Of a stretch of 64,000 nt of DNA, positions 8,631 to 16,398 are shown in pieces. The DNA is from Microbacterium telephonicum (GTDB lineage: Bacteria; Actinomycetota; Actinomycetes; Actinomycetales; Microbacteriaceae). The DNA is taken from the NCBI RefSeq assembly GCF_003651225.1, contig NZ_RCDB01000001.1, positions 868,001 to 932,000 on the forward strand, written 5' to 3'. Every line of letters starts with the position of its first letter. Position 1 is the stretch's first letter. The position numbers were made by a program, and so were the translations under genes. The notes below the pieces were generated by a model that saw only the letters and a program-made list of their open reading frames with translations, had not been told where the DNA came from and did not search any database.

Positions 8631-8697
8631 GGGTTATCGCGAGAAGGCGTCATGGGGCGGCTTCCGAGACTGCGCATTCTCGGCATCCTGACGCCGA

Positions 8698-8721: not shown

Positions 8722-8750
8722 TTGCGCAATCCCCACGCCCCGTGTAGACA
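8722..8750 (+). promoter_or_regulatory. Promoter of first sugar ABC operon
   Basis: TTGCGC (8722-8727) and TAGACA (8745-8750) are 17 bases apart, upstream of the 8825 permease gene. The leader would be roughly 70 bases. Confidence 0.6.
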
Positions 8751-8824
8751 TGGGGAAGCGCATTCCAGAAAGCGCATTCTCACACCATCGATGTAGATGA
8801 CGGAGGGTCGAAGGTGACCACCCA

Positions 8825-9751
8825 ATGAGCGCGCTCAGCGAGCTCGGCAAGCTCAAGTCCCAGGGCGCAGCCGGCAAGAAGCAGAACAAGGTCGCGTACC
8901 TGTTCCTGCTGCCGTGGTTCGTGGGACTCCTGCTCGTGACGATCGGTCCGATGATCGCGTCGTTCGTCCTGTCGTTCACGAAGTACAACCTGCTGAGCCC
9001 CCCGAAGTTCACCGGTCTCACCAACTGGGAGCGGATGCTGGAGGACGAGCGCCTGCACAAGGCGCTGGAGGTCACGTTCCAATACGTGTTCATCTCGCTG
9101 CCGATCCAGCTCGCCGTCGCGCTGCTGCTCGCGATCGTGCTCGACCGCGGGATGCGCGGCCTGTCGTTCTACCGGTCGGCCTTCTACCTGCCGTCGCTGC
9201 TCGGGGCGAGTGTCGCGATCGCGATGCTCTGGCGCCAGCTGTTCGGCGTCGACGGCCTCGTCAACCAGGTGCTCGCGGTGTTCGGCATCGACGGTCAGGG
9301 CTGGATCTCGAGCCCCGACACGGCGCTGGGGACCCTCATGATCCTCAACGTCTGGACGTTCGGCTCGCCGATGGTGATCTTCCTCGCGGGGCTCCGCCAG
9401 ATCCCGACGATGTACTACGAGGCGGCATCCGTCGACGGCGCCTCCCGGTTCCAGCAGCTGTGGAAGATCACCCTCCCGCTGCTGACCCCGATCATCTTCT
9501 TCAACGCCGTCCTGCAGCTGATCGGCACGTTCCAGTCGTTCACGCAGGCCTACATCGTCTCGGGCGGCTCCGGCGGCCCGGTCGATTCGACGCTGTTCTA
9601 CACGCTGTACCTGTATCAGCAGGGCTTCGGCAACCTCAACATGGGGTACGCCTCGGCCATGGCCTGGCTCCTGCTGATCATCGTGGCGGCTCTGACCGCC
9701 CTCGCCTTCTGGACCTCGAAGCTGTGGGTTTTCTACGATGACGAAGATTGA
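8825..9751 (+). CDS. Carbohydrate ABC transporter permease, MalF type
   Basis: 308 residues with six membrane segments, the first at about residues 25-47 (VAYLFLLPWFVGLLLV). The cytoplasmic EAA loop reads EAASVDGASRFQQLWKITLP, which contacts the ATPase. The gene heads a plus-strand operon with a second permease (14-base overlap), a binding protein, a LacI-type regulator and a dehydrogenase. No ATPase gene is included, so a shared MsiK-type ATPase elsewhere probably energises it, as in many actinobacteria. A tiny GTG-led frame (8814-8828) overlaps the start codon. The sugar is not identifiable from sequence. Confidence 0.9.
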   Translation: MSALSELGKLKSQGAAGKKQNKVAYLFLLPWFVGLLLVTIGPMIASFVLSFTKYNLLSPPKFTGLTNWERMLEDERLHKALEVTFQYVFISLPIQLAVALLLAIVLDRGMRGLSFYRSAFYLPSLLGASVAIAMLWRQLFGVDGLVNQVLAVFGIDGQGWISSPDTALGTLMILNVWTFGSPMVIFLAGLRQIPTMYYEAASVDGASRFQQLWKITLPLLTPIIFFNAVLQLIGTFQSFTQAYIVSGGSGGPVDSTLFYTLYLYQQGFGNLNMGYASAMAWLLLIIVAALTALAFWTSKLWVFYDDED

Positions 9752-10658
9752 GTACACCGAGGCCCCGGCCTCGCTCGCCACCGAAGCGATCATCACCGGT
9801 CGCCCCGCCCGACGCCGGCGCGACCCGTTCCGCAAGCCGGTCACGAGCATCGTGCGCCACGCGCTGCTGATCGCGATGGCCGTGCTGATGCTCTACCCGA
9901 TCATCTGGATGGTCGTGAGCTCCCTGCGACCCAACGACGTGATCTTCCGCGAGCCGGGGATCGTGCTCGACAGCTTCGAGTTCTCCAACTACACCGACGG
10001 ATGGAACGCCCTGGCGAACCCCTTCGGCCTGTACATCTGGAACTCCGCCGTCATCGTGCTCGGCAGCATCGTGGGCAACCTCGTGTCGTGCTCGATGGCC
10101 GCCTACGCCTTCGCCCGGCTGGAGTTCACCGGGAAGCGGGTCTTCTTCGGGCTGATGCTGCTGAGCATCATGCTCCCGATCCACGTGATCATCGTCCCGC
10201 AGTACGTGCTGTTCTCGCAGATCGGCTGGGTCAACACGTTCCTGCCGCTCATCGTGCCGAAGCTGCTCGCGACCGACGCGTTCTTCGTCTTCTTGATGGT
10301 GCAGTTCATCCGCGGTGTCCCGCGCGAGCTCGACGAGGCGGCGCGCATCGACGGCGCCGGACACCCCCGCATCTTCCTGCAGATCATCCTGCCGCTCATG
10401 GTGCCGGCCCTCGCGACGACGGCGATCTTCACCTTCATCTGGACGTGGAACGACTTCTTCGCCCAACTCATCTACCTCACGCGGCCGGAGCTGTACACCG
10501 TGCCGCTGGGCCTGCGTTCCTTCGAGGACGCGCAGTCGGCCACCAACTACGCGCAGATGTTCGCGATGAGCGTCGTCTCGCTGATCCCCATCTTCCTCGT
10601 CTTCCTGTTCGGGCAGAAGTTCCTCATCAAGGGCATCGCCACGACCGGGATCAAGTGA
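9738..10658 (+). CDS. Carbohydrate ABC transporter permease, MalG type
   Basis: 306 residues, partner of the preceding permease and overlapping it by 14 bases. Six membrane segments follow a basic N-terminus (RPARRRRDPF). The EAA loop is ELDEAARIDGAGHPRIFLQI, followed by LPLMVPALATTAIF, and the C-terminus ends with FLIKGIATTGIK, typical of MalG-like proteins. Together the pair forms the membrane channel of a CUT1-type sugar importer. A 107-base gap then precedes the binding protein. Confidence 0.9.
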   Translation: MTKIEYTEAPASLATEAIITGRPARRRRDPFRKPVTSIVRHALLIAMAVLMLYPIIWMVVSSLRPNDVIFREPGIVLDSFEFSNYTDGWNALANPFGLYIWNSAVIVLGSIVGNLVSCSMAAYAFARLEFTGKRVFFGLMLLSIMLPIHVIIVPQYVLFSQIGWVNTFLPLIVPKLLATDAFFVFLMVQFIRGVPRELDEAARIDGAGHPRIFLQIILPLMVPALATTAIFTFIWTWNDFFAQLIYLTRPELYTVPLGLRSFEDAQSATNYAQMFAMSVVSLIPIFLVFLFGQKFLIKGIATTGIK

Positions 10659-10765: not shown

Positions 10766-12100
10766 ATGCGAACCACACCCGCACGACGCTGGTTGACGTT
10801 CACGGCCGCCGGCGCAGCGACGATGCTCGCGCTGACGGCGTGCGGCGGCTCGTCGACGCCCGAGAGCACCGGCCCGACGCTGTCCACCGAGCCCGTGACA
10901 CTGAGCTTCACCTGGTGGGGCAACGACGTGCGCCACGAGATCACCCAGCAGCTCATCGACGCCTTCGAGGCCGAACACGAGAACATCACCATCGAGCCGC
11001 AGTTCACCGACTGGGCCGGCTACTGGGACAAGCTGTCGACCACCGTGGCGGCGGGGGACACCCCCGACATCATCCAGATGGACGAGAAGCAGCTGTCGAC
11101 CTACGCCGCCAACGGTGTGCTGCTCGACCTCGGCAGCCTCGGCGAGGCGCTCCCGACGGGAGACTTCCCGGAGGGCACGCTCGGCACCGGTGCCCTCGAC
11201 GGCACGCAGTACGGCATCCCGGTCGGCATCAACACGTACACGATCATGGCCAACCTCGACCTGCTCGAGAGTCTCGGCATCGAGGCGCCCGACGACGAGA
11301 CCTGGTCGTGGGACGACTTCGCGAAGCTGTCGGAGGAGATCACGACGGCCTCAGGCGGTGCGACGATCGGCTCGCAGTCGTGGGGCTTCGAAGACGGCGG
11401 ACTCAACAACTGGCTCCGCCAGCACGGCGAGTCGCTCTACGCCGCCGACGGGTCGCCGGAGGTCGCGGCGACCGAGGACACGCTCGCGGGCTTCTGGCAG
11501 TTCCTGCTCGACACGACCGAGGCCGGCGGCACCCCCGACCCCTCGGCGACGATCGAGCGCGAGTCGGCGGGCCTCGCGGAGTCGTTCACGGCCACCAACC
11601 AGTCGGCCTTCGGCCCGTGGTGGTCCAACCAGGTCGCCGCGCTCCGCTCGGCGAGCGGTCAGAACCTCGTCCCGCTGCGGATCCCCACGCCCGACGAGGG
11701 CGCCGACGCGTCCGCGTACTACAAGCCCTCGATGTTCTGGTCGGCCTCGGCCAAGACCGAGCACCCCGGCGAGGTCGCGCTGTTCCTCGACTTCCTCGCC
11801 AACAGCGAGGAAGCCGCCGACCTGCTGCTCGCCGAGCGCGGTGTGCCCGCCAACGACAAGATCCGCGAGTACATCACGCCCAAGCTCGACGAGACCAACC
11901 AGGAGGTCGTGGCCTTCCTCGACTCGATCAGCGAGCGCGTCGGCGACGCCCCGCCGGCCACGCCCCCGGGCGGCGGCGCGATCGAGACGATCATCGACCA
12001 GCACACGCAGCAGGTGCTGTTCGGCGAACTGACCCCGGAGGAGGCCGCGGCCAGCTTCATCGAGGAGCTGCAGCGCGCCCTCGACGACGCGGCCATCTAG
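10766..12100 (+). CDS. Sugar ABC transporter lipoprotein binding protein
   Basis: 444 residues. The N-terminus is a lipoprotein signal peptide: MRTTPARR, a hydrophobic stretch, then the lipobox LTAC with the acylated cysteine at residue 25 or so. The mature protein has the type 1 solute-binding fold, with LSFTWWGNDVRHEITQQLID and FEAEHENITIEPQF at the start. Start choice: AAAGG lies 9 bases before the ATG at 10766, whereas the ATG at 10757 directly abuts it. The protein would be tethered to the outer face of the membrane and deliver carbohydrate to the two upstream permeases. Confidence 0.92.
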   Translation: MRTTPARRWLTFTAAGAATMLALTACGGSSTPESTGPTLSTEPVTLSFTWWGNDVRHEITQQLIDAFEAEHENITIEPQFTDWAGYWDKLSTTVAAGDTPDIIQMDEKQLSTYAANGVLLDLGSLGEALPTGDFPEGTLGTGALDGTQYGIPVGINTYTIMANLDLLESLGIEAPDDETWSWDDFAKLSEEITTASGGATIGSQSWGFEDGGLNNWLRQHGESLYAADGSPEVAATEDTLAGFWQFLLDTTEAGGTPDPSATIERESAGLAESFTATNQSAFGPWWSNQVAALRSASGQNLVPLRIPTPDEGADASAYYKPSMFWSASAKTEHPGEVALFLDFLANSEEAADLLLAERGVPANDKIREYITPKLDETNQEVVAFLDSISERVGDAPPATPPGGGAIETIIDQHTQQVLFGELTPEEAAASFIEELQRALDDAAI

Positions 12101-12243: not shown

Positions 12244-14100
12244 TTGGCACTGACCACGTCCCGCCCCATCACGATGGCGCAGGTCGCCCGGCACGCCGGC
12301 GTGTCGCAGGCCTCCGTGTCGCGCGTGCTCAACGGCGTCTCGACGGTCGACCCCGCGATCGTCGCGAAGGTCAACCGCGCCGTCGCCGAGCTCGACTACT
12401 CGCCGAGCGAGACCGCCCGCAGCCTCGTGCGCGGACGCAGCCAGACCATCGCGCTGATCGTCCCCGACCTCGAGAACCCGATGTTCCAGGGCGTGCTCAA
12501 GGGGCTCACGGTCGCCGCCGCCCGCGACGGCTACCGGGTGCTCGTGGCCGACACCGCCGAGACGGTCGACGTCGAGGCCGACGTCGCCCTCGAGGCGCGC
12601 ACGAAGGGTGACGCGCTCGTGCTGGTCTCCCCGCGCATGCCGGATGCCGAGCTCGAAGACATCGTGCGCCGCGCCGCTCCGGTGGTCGTGGTCAACCGCG
12701 CCGTGCTCCCCTCGGGCACCGGCCAGCTCGCCGTCGACTACGCCGCGGCGGCGCGCGAGCTCGGCGAGCACCTCGTGGGCTTCGGGCACACGCGCATCGT
12801 CTACATCGGGGGACCGGCCGGCAGCTACGCCAACCAGTTGCGTCTGCAGGGGCTCGCCGAGTTCACCCGCGCCCACCCCGACGTCGAGCTGCTCACCATC
12901 ACGGCGGGCTCGTCGATGGAGGCCGGCTACGACGCCGCCGACACCGTCGTCGAGACCGGGGCGACGGCGGCGATCGCCTTCAACGACCTCGTCGCGCTGG
13001 GGGTCATGTCGCGGCTGCGCGAAGTCGGCGTCGCCGTGCCCGACCAGCTCTCGCTCGCCGGCATCGACGACATCCCGCAGGCGCGCTTCGCGGCGCCGCC
13101 GCTCACATCGATGGCGGTGCCGCGCACCGAGATCGGACGGCAGGCGTGGCTGCGGCTGCGCGACCTGCTCGACGGGCACGATCCGGCATCCGGACTCTTC
13201 TACCGGCCCACCATCATCGCGCGCGACAGCACCGGACCGTCGCCGGTGGCCAGCGGCTGGCTCGGCCCTGCACGCCCCGTGCTGCGCCTGGGCTCGACCG
13301 TCGTCGCCCACTACCAGGACGGCACGGCCGTCGACTCCGTGCTCTCGCCGCGTCCCTACCTGGATGCCGTCGTCTCGCGCGCCGGCACGCCGCTGACGAC
13401 GACCGGTCCCACCGACCATCCGCACCACCTCGGGGTCAGCCTCGCGATCGCCGACGTCAACGGCACGTCGTACTGGGGCGGGCGCACGTTCGTCCGCGGC
13501 GAGGGGTCGATCATGGTGCCCAACCACGGCCGCCAGCGGCGCGACGACCTGCGCATCGACGATCACACGCTGCACGAGCGGCTCAGCTGGGTCGACCACC
13601 ACGGCACGACCCAGCTCGTGGAGGTGCGCGAGATCCGCACCGCCGCCTTCGAGGGCGGATGGGCGCTGAGCTGGCGCAGCCACCTCAAGGCGACCCTCGA
13701 TGCCATCACGTTCGGATCGCCGGCCAGCAACGGACGCCCCGGCGCGGGCTACGGCGGCATTTTCTGGCGGTTCGCGCCCGACATCGCGCGGGTGTTCAGC
13801 CCGGCAGGCGACACCGAGAAGGCCGTGCACGGCGCGGCGACACCCTGGGTCGCGTTCGCCTTCCCCGAACGGGAGACGACGGTCATCCTGCACCAGGCGC
13901 GGGAGCCGCTGCCCTGGTTCGTCCGCTTCGCGGAATACCTCGGCGCCGGTCCCGCGATCGCGTGGGACAGTCCGCGCCGTCTTCCCGAGGGCGGATCGCT
14001 GGACCTCGAGCTCGGCGCGTTCGTGCTGGACCGTCCCCTCGCCGATGCGGCGGCGGTCGAGGCCGTGCTGCCCGACCTGCGCGCGCGGACGGGCCTGTGA
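12244..14100 (+). CDS. LacI-family regulator fused to DUF6807 (PmoA-like) domain
   Basis: 618 residues in one uninterrupted frame. Residues about 8-60 are a LacI helix-turn-helix (MAQVARHAGVSQASVSRVLN), and 60-333 the periplasmic-binding-protein-like sensor (IALIVPDLENPMFQGVL, SLAGIDDIPQARFAAPPLTS). From about residue 340 a second domain follows with TGPTDHPHHLG and SYWGGRTFVRGEG, the histidine-rich signature of the DUF6807/PmoA family, found in glycan-catabolic operons. The start is taken as TTG at 12244, spaced 7 bases from AAAGGAGA; an ATG ten codons later is the alternative. It overlaps the Gfo/Idh/MocA gene by 4 bases. Probable role: operon regulator with an added sugar-related domain. 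Confidence 0.85.
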   Translation: MALTTSRPITMAQVARHAGVSQASVSRVLNGVSTVDPAIVAKVNRAVAELDYSPSETARSLVRGRSQTIALIVPDLENPMFQGVLKGLTVAAARDGYRVLVADTAETVDVEADVALEARTKGDALVLVSPRMPDAELEDIVRRAAPVVVVNRAVLPSGTGQLAVDYAAAARELGEHLVGFGHTRIVYIGGPAGSYANQLRLQGLAEFTRAHPDVELLTITAGSSMEAGYDAADTVVETGATAAIAFNDLVALGVMSRLREVGVAVPDQLSLAGIDDIPQARFAAPPLTSMAVPRTEIGRQAWLRLRDLLDGHDPASGLFYRPTIIARDSTGPSPVASGWLGPARPVLRLGSTVVAHYQDGTAVDSVLSPRPYLDAVVSRAGTPLTTTGPTDHPHHLGVSLAIADVNGTSYWGGRTFVRGEGSIMVPNHGRQRRDDLRIDDHTLHERLSWVDHHGTTQLVEVREIRTAAFEGGWALSWRSHLKATLDAITFGSPASNGRPGAGYGGIFWRFAPDIARVFSPAGDTEKAVHGAATPWVAFAFPERETTVILHQAREPLPWFVRFAEYLGAGPAIAWDSPRRLPEGGSLDLELGAFVLDRPLADAAAVEAVLPDLRARTGL

Positions 14101-15212
14101 GCGGCGCCGATCCGGTGCGCATCGGCCTCGCCGGCGTGCACGGTCACGGTCGCAGCCATGTCGAGGCCGCCCTCGCCCTGCAGGCGCAGGGGCGCGCACG
14201 CGTCGTGGCCGTCGCCGACCCGCGCGGGCCGGGGGAGGTGCCGCCCGACGTGCGCAGCCACGCCGCGGCCGAGGAGATGATCGCCGCCGGCGGCCTCGAC
14301 GTCGTCGTGCTCTGCACCCCCATCCCGACCCATGCCGGCCTCGCCGAGGCGGCGCTCGCCGCCGGTGCCCATGTGCTGCTCGAGAAGCCCCCGGTGGTCT
14401 CCGTCGTCGACCACGACCGCCTCCTGGCTGCGTCGGCGCGCGTCGGCCGTGCCGTGCAGGTCGGCTTCCAGTCGCTGGCCGGCGACGGGGTCGACGCCGC
14501 GATCGAGGCGGCCGCGTCGCTCGGCGGCATCCGCCACATCGCGGCCGTGGGCGTGTGGACGCGCTCGGAGGAGTATTGGCGCCGTGCCCGCTGGTCGGGG
14601 CGACGCGAGCTCGACGGGCAGGTGGTGGCCGACGGGGTCGCCACCAATCCGCTCGCGCACGCGATCGCGACCGCCCTCGCGATCGCCGGTGCCGCCGCCC
14701 CGGGCGACGTCGTCGACGTCGAGACCGATCTGCGGCGTGTCAACGACATCGAGACCGACGACACGTCGTCGCTGCGCATCCGTCTGGCGGACGGGCCCGA
14801 CGTGGTCGCGGCCCTCACGACCTCGGGGGAGGCGCGACACGAGCCGTACGTGCTCGTCCGCGGTGAGCGCGGCCACCTCGTCTACCACTACACGCTCGAT
14901 GTGCTGCAGGTCTTCGCCGCCGGCGCCGCCCTGCCGCGCACGTTCCACTTCGCGCGCATCGGTGTGCTCGACGACCTCGTGGCGCATGTCGCCGACGGCA
15001 CGCCGCTGCGGGTGCCGCTCACGCGCACCGGCGCCTTCACGCGGGTGCTCGAGGCGATCGTCTCCTCGCCCGCGCCCACCCGGATCACGGGATACACCGC
15101 GGTGGAGCGCGCCGGCGAGCGGTTCCGTGTGGTCCCGGGTGTCGCGGACGCCGTCGAGCGTGCCGCCTGGGACGGGATGCTGTTCCGTGAGTTCGGCTCC
15201 GGGCTGAGCTGA
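14097..15212 (+). CDS. Gfo/Idh/MocA family oxidoreductase
   Basis: 371 residues beginning with GTG that overlaps the preceding stop (GTGA). The N-terminal Rossmann fold reads PVRIGLAGVHGHGRSHVEAA, followed by the family hallmark EKPP in GAHVLLEKPPVVSV. The C-terminal half is the alpha/beta substrate domain. The enzyme probably oxidises or reduces a sugar hydroxyl with NAD(P). Tight coupling to the LacI-DUF6807 gene and the ABC importer indicates a catabolic operon in which an imported carbohydrate is processed by these proteins; the substrate is not determined. Confidence 0.88.
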   Translation: MSGADPVRIGLAGVHGHGRSHVEAALALQAQGRARVVAVADPRGPGEVPPDVRSHAAAEEMIAAGGLDVVVLCTPIPTHAGLAEAALAAGAHVLLEKPPVVSVVDHDRLLAASARVGRAVQVGFQSLAGDGVDAAIEAAASLGGIRHIAAVGVWTRSEEYWRRARWSGRRELDGQVVADGVATNPLAHAIATALAIAGAAAPGDVVDVETDLRRVNDIETDDTSSLRIRLADGPDVVAALTTSGEARHEPYVLVRGERGHLVYHYTLDVLQVFAAGAALPRTFHFARIGVLDDLVAHVADGTPLRVPLTRTGAFTRVLEAIVSSPAPTRITGYTAVERAGERFRVVPGVADAVERAAWDGMLFREFGSGLS

Positions 15213-15224
15213 CGACGCCCGCGC

Positions 15225-15259
15225 CCGTGCCCGCCCCGTGTGTCAGCGGTCGGGCACGG
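15225..15259. terminator. Hairpin between convergent genes
   Basis: CCGTGCCCG (15225-15233) and CGGGCACGG (15251-15259) are perfect arms around 17 bases, reaching into the 3' end of the LacI gene. It can serve as a terminator in both directions. Confidence 0.55.
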
Positions 15260-16244
15260 CGGTGGAGGTGCGCACGATCAGCCGCGCGCGGGTGTGCAGG
15301 AAGGTGCGCGGCCGCTCCGGGTCGTCGATCTCGGCCAGCAGCGTCGCGACGGCGGCCGCGCCCTGCTCGCGCGGCACCTGCCGCAGCGTCGTGAGCGAGA
15401 ACATCTCGGCGTATTCGTGGTCGTCGATGCCGACGACGCTCAGCGTGCCGGGCACCTGGATGCCCTGGCGCCTGGCGGCGATGATGGCGCCGACGGCCAC
15501 CTCGTCGCACACGCCGACGATGGCGGTGGGGCGGGCCTGCGCGTCTCCGAGCAGATCGGATGCCGCCGCATAACCGCCGGGCAGGCTCACGTCCGCCGCG
15601 ACGTGCCGGATCTCCGCCGCCAGCCCCGCCGCCGTCATCGCCGACCGGTAGCCGTCGAGCCGCTGCCGGTCGACGAACGCCCAGTGCGGACCGGCGCCGC
15701 CGATGAACGCGATGCGCGTGTGGCCGAGCCCGATGAGGTGCTCGGTGGCGCGGCGGGCGGCGTGGTCGTCGTCGATCGCGACGACGCTCGTCGATTCCCC
15801 TGTGCCCACGACGCTGACGATCGGGCGACCGATGCGGGTGAGCTGCTCGAGCTCGTGGTCTTCGGGCTCGAGGCCCACCGCGATGAGGCCGTCGAACCTC
15901 TTGCGTGCGAGGAAGTCGTCGAAGATCCGCCGGCGTCCCACGGTGCCCGGTCGCGCGTCGTAGAGCGTCAGGTCGAGCCCCTTCGCGAGCAGCGACTCCT
16001 GGATACCCTCGAGCACTTCGGCGAAGAACCACCGGTTGAGGTAGGGCATGACGACGCCGACGTTCTTGGTGCGGCCGGTCGCAAGGCTGACGGCGCTCGT
16101 GGAGGGGACGTAGCCGAGCTCCTCGGCGGCTTCGCGCACGCGCGAACGGGTGGCATCCGAGACGTATCCCGTGCCGGTCAGCGCGCGGCTGGCGGTCGCC
16201 TTCGAGACACCCGCACGCGCGGCGACATCTGCGATGCCCGCCAT
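15243..16244 (-). CDS. LacI-family regulator of second sugar operon
   Basis: 333 residues. The HTH is at the very N-terminus (MAGIADVAARAGVSKATASR), followed by the sensor domain (VGVVMPYLNRWFFAEVLEGI, VVGIDDHEYAEMFSLTTLRQ). The ATG at 16244 is chosen because AGGAGG lies about 5 bases upstream; longer frames lack such a site. The gene is divergent from a complete sugar ABC operon, and two near-identical GGAAYCGRTTCC-type palindromes lie in the gap. It is therefore very likely the local repressor, responding to the imported sugar. Confidence 0.92.
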   Translation of the reverse strand: MAGIADVAARAGVSKATASRALTGTGYVSDATRSRVREAAEELGYVPSTSAVSLATGRTKNVGVVMPYLNRWFFAEVLEGIQESLLAKGLDLTLYDARPGTVGRRRIFDDFLARKRFDGLIAVGLEPEDHELEQLTRIGRPIVSVVGTGESTSVVAIDDDHAARRATEHLIGLGHTRIAFIGGAGPHWAFVDRQRLDGYRSAMTAAGLAAEIRHVAADVSLPGGYAAASDLLGDAQARPTAIVGVCDEVAVGAIIAARRQGIQVPGTLSVVGIDDHEYAEMFSLTTLRQVPREQGAAAVATLLAEIDDPERPRTFLHTRARLIVRTSTAVPDR

Positions 16245-16295
16245 GCTCCTCCTCTTCGAGTGCACCACAGGATACCCGAGCGGGCCGCTGAATGT

Positions 16296-16369: not shown

Positions 16370-16398
16370 TTGTGTGTTTTCCGAGAGTCCCCTACCGT
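16370..16398 (+). promoter_or_regulatory. Promoter of second sugar ABC operon
   Basis: TTGTGT (16370-16375) and TACCGT (16393-16398) are spaced by 17 bases. Operator 2 lies immediately downstream, over the expected transcription start, so bound repressor would block initiation. Confidence 0.55.

Follow-up and report, generated by a model that had tools for sequence, protein, structure and literature searches.

A LacI-type regulator and a DUF6807 domain share one reading frame in Microbacterium telephonicum and several related actinomycete genera

Repressors of the LacI/GalR family, among them LacI, CcpA and PurR, combine a helix-turn-helix, a hinge and a periplasmic-binding-like core with sugar-contact residues, and go with a palindromic operator with a central CG. 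The protein described here, encoded in a stretch of 64,000 nucleotides (hereafter the window) from the soil-type bacterium Microbacterium telephonicum, resembles them in all these features, but carries a DUF6807 domain of 270 residues after the core in the place of the short C-terminal tetramer helix of E. coli LacI. A study of BzdR describes a helix-turn-helix fused to a shikimate-kinase-like domain, in which the enzyme-like domain is the sensor and is without kinase activity (PMC3602430). The likeness to BzdR lies in the fusion of a DNA-binding part to a domain of enzyme origin; unlike BzdR, the present protein already has a complete sensor, and its added DUF6807 domain retains the conserved residues of its family.

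Other proteins with the DUF6807 domain (PF14100) likewise contain the whole domain with its family-wide conserved residues, but there it is free or linked to a Gfo/Idh dehydrogenase, and here it is joined to a transcription factor. In a possible operon reported in one study (PMC5342196), a PF14100 gene, an enolase-superfamily gene and the genes of two new beta-galactosidases lie together, and PF14100 was used as the PmoA model for methane oxidation in a lake metatranscriptome study (PMC10291797). The open-licence literature, in the portions accessible, yielded neither an assigned function for DUF6807 nor a reported activity of any of its members. No report of the LacI-DUF6807 architecture was found among the open-licence papers listed; domain databases may well list it. 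In its accessible text, a study of LacI regulons (PMC4052901) makes no mention of the words fused or fusion.

A first-pass annotation of the window had described one gene as a LacI regulator joined to a DUF6807 domain in a single reading frame, immediately before a Gfo/Idh/MocA dehydrogenase and behind a sugar importer. The genes and domains of the locus are the following.

8825-9751, + strand: ABC sugar permease 1 (PF00528)
9738-10658, + strand: ABC sugar permease 2 (PF00528)
10766-12100, + strand: ABC solute-binding lipoprotein (PF13416, 97.5 bits; start picked by eye)
12244-14100, + strand: LacI-DUF6807 fusion gene, 618 residues, TTG start, fused in 47 of 50 related loci
12271-12408, + strand: LacI helix-turn-helix, residues 10-55 (PF00356, 47.1 bits)
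12442-13233, + strand: LacI effector-binding core, residues 67-330 (PF13377/PF00532; alignment with E. coli LacI)
13282-14064, + strand: DUF6807 domain, residues 347-607 (PF14100, E 2.6e-53; model pLDDT 94.9; structural matches with Z of about 15)
14097-15212, + strand: Gfo/Idh/MocA dehydrogenase (PF01408, 51.3 bits; start overlaps the fusion stop)

The fusion gene is a single open frame from a TTG start, with AAAGGAG ahead of it, to a TGA stop, and contains no inner stop. A Pfam scan of the 618 residues matched the LacI-type helix-turn-helix (47.1 bits against a curated cut-off of 27), Peripla_BP_3 (PF13377) at residues 175-330 (102.4 bits against 26.5) and DUF6807 (181.8 bits against 27). 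The last match covers positions 4-267 of 270, almost the whole profile, and the annotated architecture is thereby borne out in both halves. The neighbourhood was also described correctly: two permeases and the solute-binding protein precede the fusion, and at 14097 its TGA shares bases with the GTG start of the dehydrogenase gene in the sequence GTGA. In the 3.1 Mb, 6-contig genome the fusion gene gave the single DUF6807 match, and the fused protein as query had 23 matches, most of them to the LacI half.

In Microbacterium, nothing but the importer, the fusion and Gfo/Idh lies at the locus ahead of the next regulator. This second LacI gene (15243-16268, - strand; 34% to the LacI half of the fusion) is convergent with the Gfo/Idh gene and, on its other side, divergent from a further gene for a solute-binding protein at 16372. 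Of the 18 Microbacterium-type fused loci, 17 retain it, and the last one reaches a contig edge.

A scan of species genomes returned 50 related loci, of which 47 had LacI and DUF6807 in one frame; genes in these relatives were open frames chosen by codon-position G+C, without annotation. The fused loci were found in Microbacterium, Agromyces, Cellulosimicrobium, Isoptericola, Promicromonospora, Antribacter, Demequina, Plantibacter and one unclassified actinomycete bin, and the closest named relative among the loci returned was Microbacterium sp. W1N (91%). Gfo/Idh stood directly 3′ of the fusion in 44 of the 47, and two others reach a contig edge. In Microbacterium hibisci (L045), the fusion is present and no Gfo/Idh gene was found behind it. 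Other arrangements were seen in the remaining three of the 50 loci: in Parafrankia, with LacI, Gfo/Idh and DUF6807 each in its own frame, in Kribbella, where a DUF6807 protein (53% identical) lies behind related permeases (62 and 59%), and in Curtobacterium (L089), where Gfo/Idh and DUF6807 share one frame. DUF6807 scored above its cut-off in 53 of 149 genomes of the genus. Full-length matches to the fusion occurred in at least 12 of these 149 and in at least 22 of 396 genomes of the order (one, G156, with an inner TGA); both counts are lower bounds, at most 8 (genus) or 3 (order) candidates per genome having been scored.

In each of the 12 pairs compared, dN was well under dS in both halves; both are thus subject to purifying selection, and the DUF6807 half is constrained and not a relic. 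Nothing was found in favour of chance read-through or an assembly error as the origin of the long frame, which is, by this selection and by the 47 of 50 shared loci, practically ruled out as an artefact, and the fusion is a conserved architecture across several related genera, no oddity of one genome. Counted among the 47 is Cellulosimicrobium sp. CUA-896 (L080:7176-7997), whose DUF6807 half is split over two frames, either by an assembly error or in a decaying copy. For the alignment of fused proteins, 41 of 48 sequences (the window and the 47 loci) were used, six near-copies and this broken one being dropped. The linker between LacI and DUF6807 is about 15 residues in Microbacterium and long and variable in Demequina.

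The AlphaFold2 model of the DUF6807 domain had a pLDDT of 94.9 and a pTM of 0.92 (87.9 and 0.81 for the whole fusion protein). Its structural matches were galactose-mutarotase-like super-sandwiches, 3mwx (Z 15.7) and 4bze (Z 15.6), at an rmsd of 3.5-3.6 over 218-219 residues, with super-sandwich domains of several glycoside hydrolases scoring just below; the top row was 9grx, one chain of a plant NDH-PSI supercomplex (Z 15.9), and rows differing by less than 1 Z count as tied. Foldseek scores were weak (best E 6e-5; TM mostly 0.3-0.5, 0.46 for 4bze). The domain is predicted with high confidence to be a galactose-mutarotase-like super-sandwich, a fold which by itself shows no function. It resembles galactose mutarotase/aldose 1-epimerase proteins (B. 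subtilis GalM, YeaD, YMR099C) in this predicted fold (4bze, 218 residues, rmsd 3.5), but differs in sequence, with about 10% identity. PF01263 had no match in the fusion at E 0.001 in the Pfam scan, and hhalign against the GalM-like protein of the same genome gave a probability of 1%. Membership of the aldose 1-epimerase family by sequence was rejected on these two results.

The first-pass annotation had further called the C-terminal part PmoA-like. This label is misleading, since the part matches DUF6807 alone and its predicted fold is mutarotase-like. No methane monooxygenase family other than PF14100 matched there in the Pfam scan, and a link to methane oxygenases found no support. If the mutarotase-like reading is true, PF14100 as a marker, in the use made of it in the lake study (PMC10291797), would not report methane oxidation.

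Across 112 DUF6807 domains (54 LacI-fused, 9 LacI-adjacent, 13 Gfo-fused, 36 other), H392, E460, Y503, R509, W535, W558, F559 and R561 were identical in all, R462 and R498 were kept in 111 and H395 in 108. The four exceptions at 395 all have Q and are fused proteins of family f14 (L098-L101); that histidine is therefore not strictly needed. At some neighbouring positions, fused forms differ from most free ones, e.g. by H394 in the place of W, which is common to LacI-fused and LacI-adjacent forms and absent from Gfo-fused ones. In the alignment, nearly all family-wide conserved residues are retained in the fused forms, and because of this retention it is plausible that the fused half binds or modifies a sugar. 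The first-pass annotation had gone further and suggested that the fused half may act on the sugar sensed by the regulator, as an enzymatic or second sensory input; the findings support this in part.

The unfused relatives suggest how the fusion arose. Thirteen regions of the genus were fetched, chosen because profile and sequence scans put a LacI relative and DUF6807 side by side. LacI was followed directly by a separate DUF6807 gene in nine, with Gfo/Idh next in four of the nine; in the remaining four (L111-L114), LacI and DUF6807 lie apart or LacI is alone. The neighbour pairs are 45-50% identical to the LacI half and 39-45% to the DUF6807 half, and their order of LacI, DUF6807 and Gfo/Idh is that of the fused locus. 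A Gfo/Idh with a DUF6807 tail in one frame was found in 12 of 297 genomes of the order. In a tree of DUF6807 (97 of the 112 domains, near-copies dropped), LacI-fused and LacI-adjacent domains together with two others formed one clade (SH-aLRT 97), the Gfo-fused domains a separate one (95) and 33 free domains a third (99). The LacI tree, likewise made without near-copies, placed the LacI halves in one clade (SH-aLRT 99) with their unfused neighbour counterparts, the LacI proteins from three f6 genomes and six other LacI rows. Both trees were quick ones with long branches flagged, and the LacI fusion took three changes in the first and four in the second, one of them forced in each. Because the unfused gene order matches and the trees group fused proteins with neighbour pairs, the fusion most probably came about by the joining of genes adjacent in an operon, in one event or in several.

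In the LacI half, R200, N247 and D275 are invariant in all 41 aligned fused proteins and correspond in the alignment to R197, N246 and D274, which are sugar-contact residues of E. coli LacI. An operator pattern, GAGAANNCGNNTTCTC, was derived from a palindrome in promoters of Plantibacter, Agromyces and Microbacterium. Sites with at most one mismatch to it number three in the 3.1 Mb genome, and two of these stand in front of the permease operon, on either side of a possible promoter.

8666-8681, no strand: upstream operator-like palindrome GAGACTGCGCATTCTC, at most one mismatch, of a conserved pair
8722-8750, + strand: possible promoter between the operators (TTGCGC, 17 bp, TAGACA), partly conserved in 14 loci
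8766-8781, no strand: downstream operator-like palindrome CAGAAAGCGCATTCTC, 100 bp from the first, at most one mismatch

When two mismatches were allowed, 64 sites were found genome-wide against 17 for the reversed pattern, and within the window two against 2.05 expected, which is not above chance; the case for operators therefore rests on the two one-mismatch sites, their conservation and their spacing. In 14 aligned loci of Microbacterium and Agromyces the sites are 98-101 bp apart and the DNA between them has largely diverged, apart from TTGC in all 14 and TAGAAA or TAGACA 17-18 bp further on in nine. This would fit a possible promoter between two operators; a strict sigma-70 consensus scan gave neither promoter nor terminator.

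With a common matrix, 46 of 47 fused loci had a further site at 25-130 bp from the first, the spacings being 100, 34-35 or 78 bp; among the unfused relatives this was so in 1 of 13. The matrices were built from hand-picked sites of the same loci, and the promoter stretches were set by hand. The fused locus with a single site is L078; not counted is L060, on a contig that starts some 160 bases ahead of the gene. With a less circular matrix from nine unfused sites, 41 of 48 fused loci had a pair and the upstream site of the window itself was missed; with a matrix from fused sites, 1 of 10 unfused loci (L110) had a weak second site, at 83 bp. The association of fusion and paired operators is accordingly a correlation over about three arrangements in few lineages, not 47 independent cases. 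Operator-like sites also precede DUF6807 genes of other forms: three stand before the separate gene in L111, one ahead of a block of binding protein, esterase-like protein and Gfo/Idh-DUF6807 in L131, and, in L130, one at the beginning of the esterase-like gene that precedes Gfo/Idh-DUF6807. From these sites, DUF6807 is likely to belong to the regulon of this LacI type. Three operator-like sites in a regular step of 34-35 bp, upstream of the fusion, were noted near 5790-5920 in L075, L077, L079 and L088, which belong to Demequina and Promicromonospora.

Taken at somewhat better than an even chance, the protein is bifunctional: a LacI repressor that acts on the transport operon it belongs to and a sugar-processing domain of mutarotase fold that works with Gfo/Idh. 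The N-terminal half would be an ordinary LacI-type repressor, bound as a dimer to both palindromic operators, one on each side of the promoter of its operon, and released when the core binds the imported sugar or a derivative. The C-terminal half would be an enzyme in one pathway with the downstream Gfo/Idh, its substrate probably a uronate- or aldarate-type sugar from the plant cell wall, and the fusion would have been born by the joining of two neighbour genes of a LacI, DUF6807 and Gfo/Idh operon. One protein may in that case process a sugar and also control the genes for its utilisation; activity in the fused half would make it a sugar repressor with an enzyme of its own. Against this reading stand the fusion without Gfo/Idh in L045, the Q at position 395 in the four f14 proteins, the negative sequence comparisons with GalM and PF01263, and the finding of no reported activity for a DUF6807 member in the accessible open-licence literature. 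The plainest case within it, which we consider possible but doubtful, is that the halves are joined only for equal dosage and each works alone, without influence on the other. Their occurrence as separate neighbour genes and the linkers, from about 15 residues to long and variable, suit such independence; the operator pairing that accompanies the fusion does not, and an enzyme at repressor dosage would be unusual. A LacI-family trigger enzyme, whose DUF6807 half converts the sugar sensed by the LacI half (or its oxidised product) and ties dimers across the two operators, so that flux, sensing and looping are coupled, is regarded as rather improbable.

The main rival to the bifunctional reading is that the DUF6807 half is no longer an enzyme and serves as a second sugar sensor, or as an assembly module that joins repressor dimers on paired operators, perhaps in a ligand-dependent manner. 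Its position at the C-terminus of LacI, where the domain would do the job of the tetramer helix of E. coli LacI, speaks for assembly, as do the pairs in nearly all fused loci against one of the 13 unfused relatives, and a spacing that stays constant between Microbacterium and Agromyces across mostly diverged DNA; in such a role the domain would give LacI-type proteins a novel means of exploiting paired operators. However, residues conserved in free and Gfo-fused DUF6807 are also retained here, and assembly alone would need none of them; the contrast in pairing stands on about three arrangements (100, 34-35 and 78 bp), with the weak second site of the unfused L110 and the single site of the fused L078 as exceptions. 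We judge this rival unlikely on balance. That the palindromes at 8666 and 8766 belong instead to the second LacI gene is far less probable still. The motif is close to one general in the LacI family, a weaker copy stands beside that gene near 16294 of the window, and the gene accompanies the fusion in nearly all Microbacterium-type loci, but in Promicromonosporaceae, Demequina and Plantibacter no close relative of it was found in the flanks, and yet the sites are there just upstream of the fusion; L067 and L070 carry another LacI about 5 kb off, 36% to the second LacI.

The substrate proposed in the bifunctional reading was approached through the genes that surround the fusion and its relatives. 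The clusters of Plantibacter and L131 (f6) contain a 5-dehydro-4-deoxyglucarate dehydratase (subfamily model NF002958, 385 and 398 bits against a cut-off of 278; below the cut-off of the equivalog TIGR03249, KdgD), a member of the enolase superfamily that comes closest to talarate/galactarate dehydratase while scoring below cut-off, an aldehyde dehydrogenase (models below their cut-offs) and an NAD-epimerase, from the family to which uronate dehydrogenase belongs; a glycerate kinase is additionally present in Plantibacter. Isoptericola has a gene of the galactarate/altronate-dehydratase family (Pfam; NCBIfam below cut-off) in a cluster that recurs in eight loci, the Kribbella locus has pectinesterase and pectate lyase domains, and GH43 was found in the two unfused Microbacterium operons scanned. 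Since enzymes of galactarate, uronate and pectin-breakdown type thus occur in clusters of the fusion, of its LacI relatives or of its DUF6807 relatives, guilt by association points to uronate- or aldarate-type sugars of the plant cell wall as the substrate class. It counts against this that the pathway genes stand near the fusion in other genera only and that several of the assignments are at family level only. DUF6807 nevertheless gains a concrete testable role, because the domain is joined, depending on the lineage, to a sugar repressor or a sugar dehydrogenase, with the operator motif in common and galactarate/uronate-type genes close by. An M24/creatinase-like protein was also observed near the fusion in Plantibacter (L081:9149-10201) and beside Gfo/Idh-DUF6807 in two f6 loci (L129:6358-7743 and L130:6831-8003).
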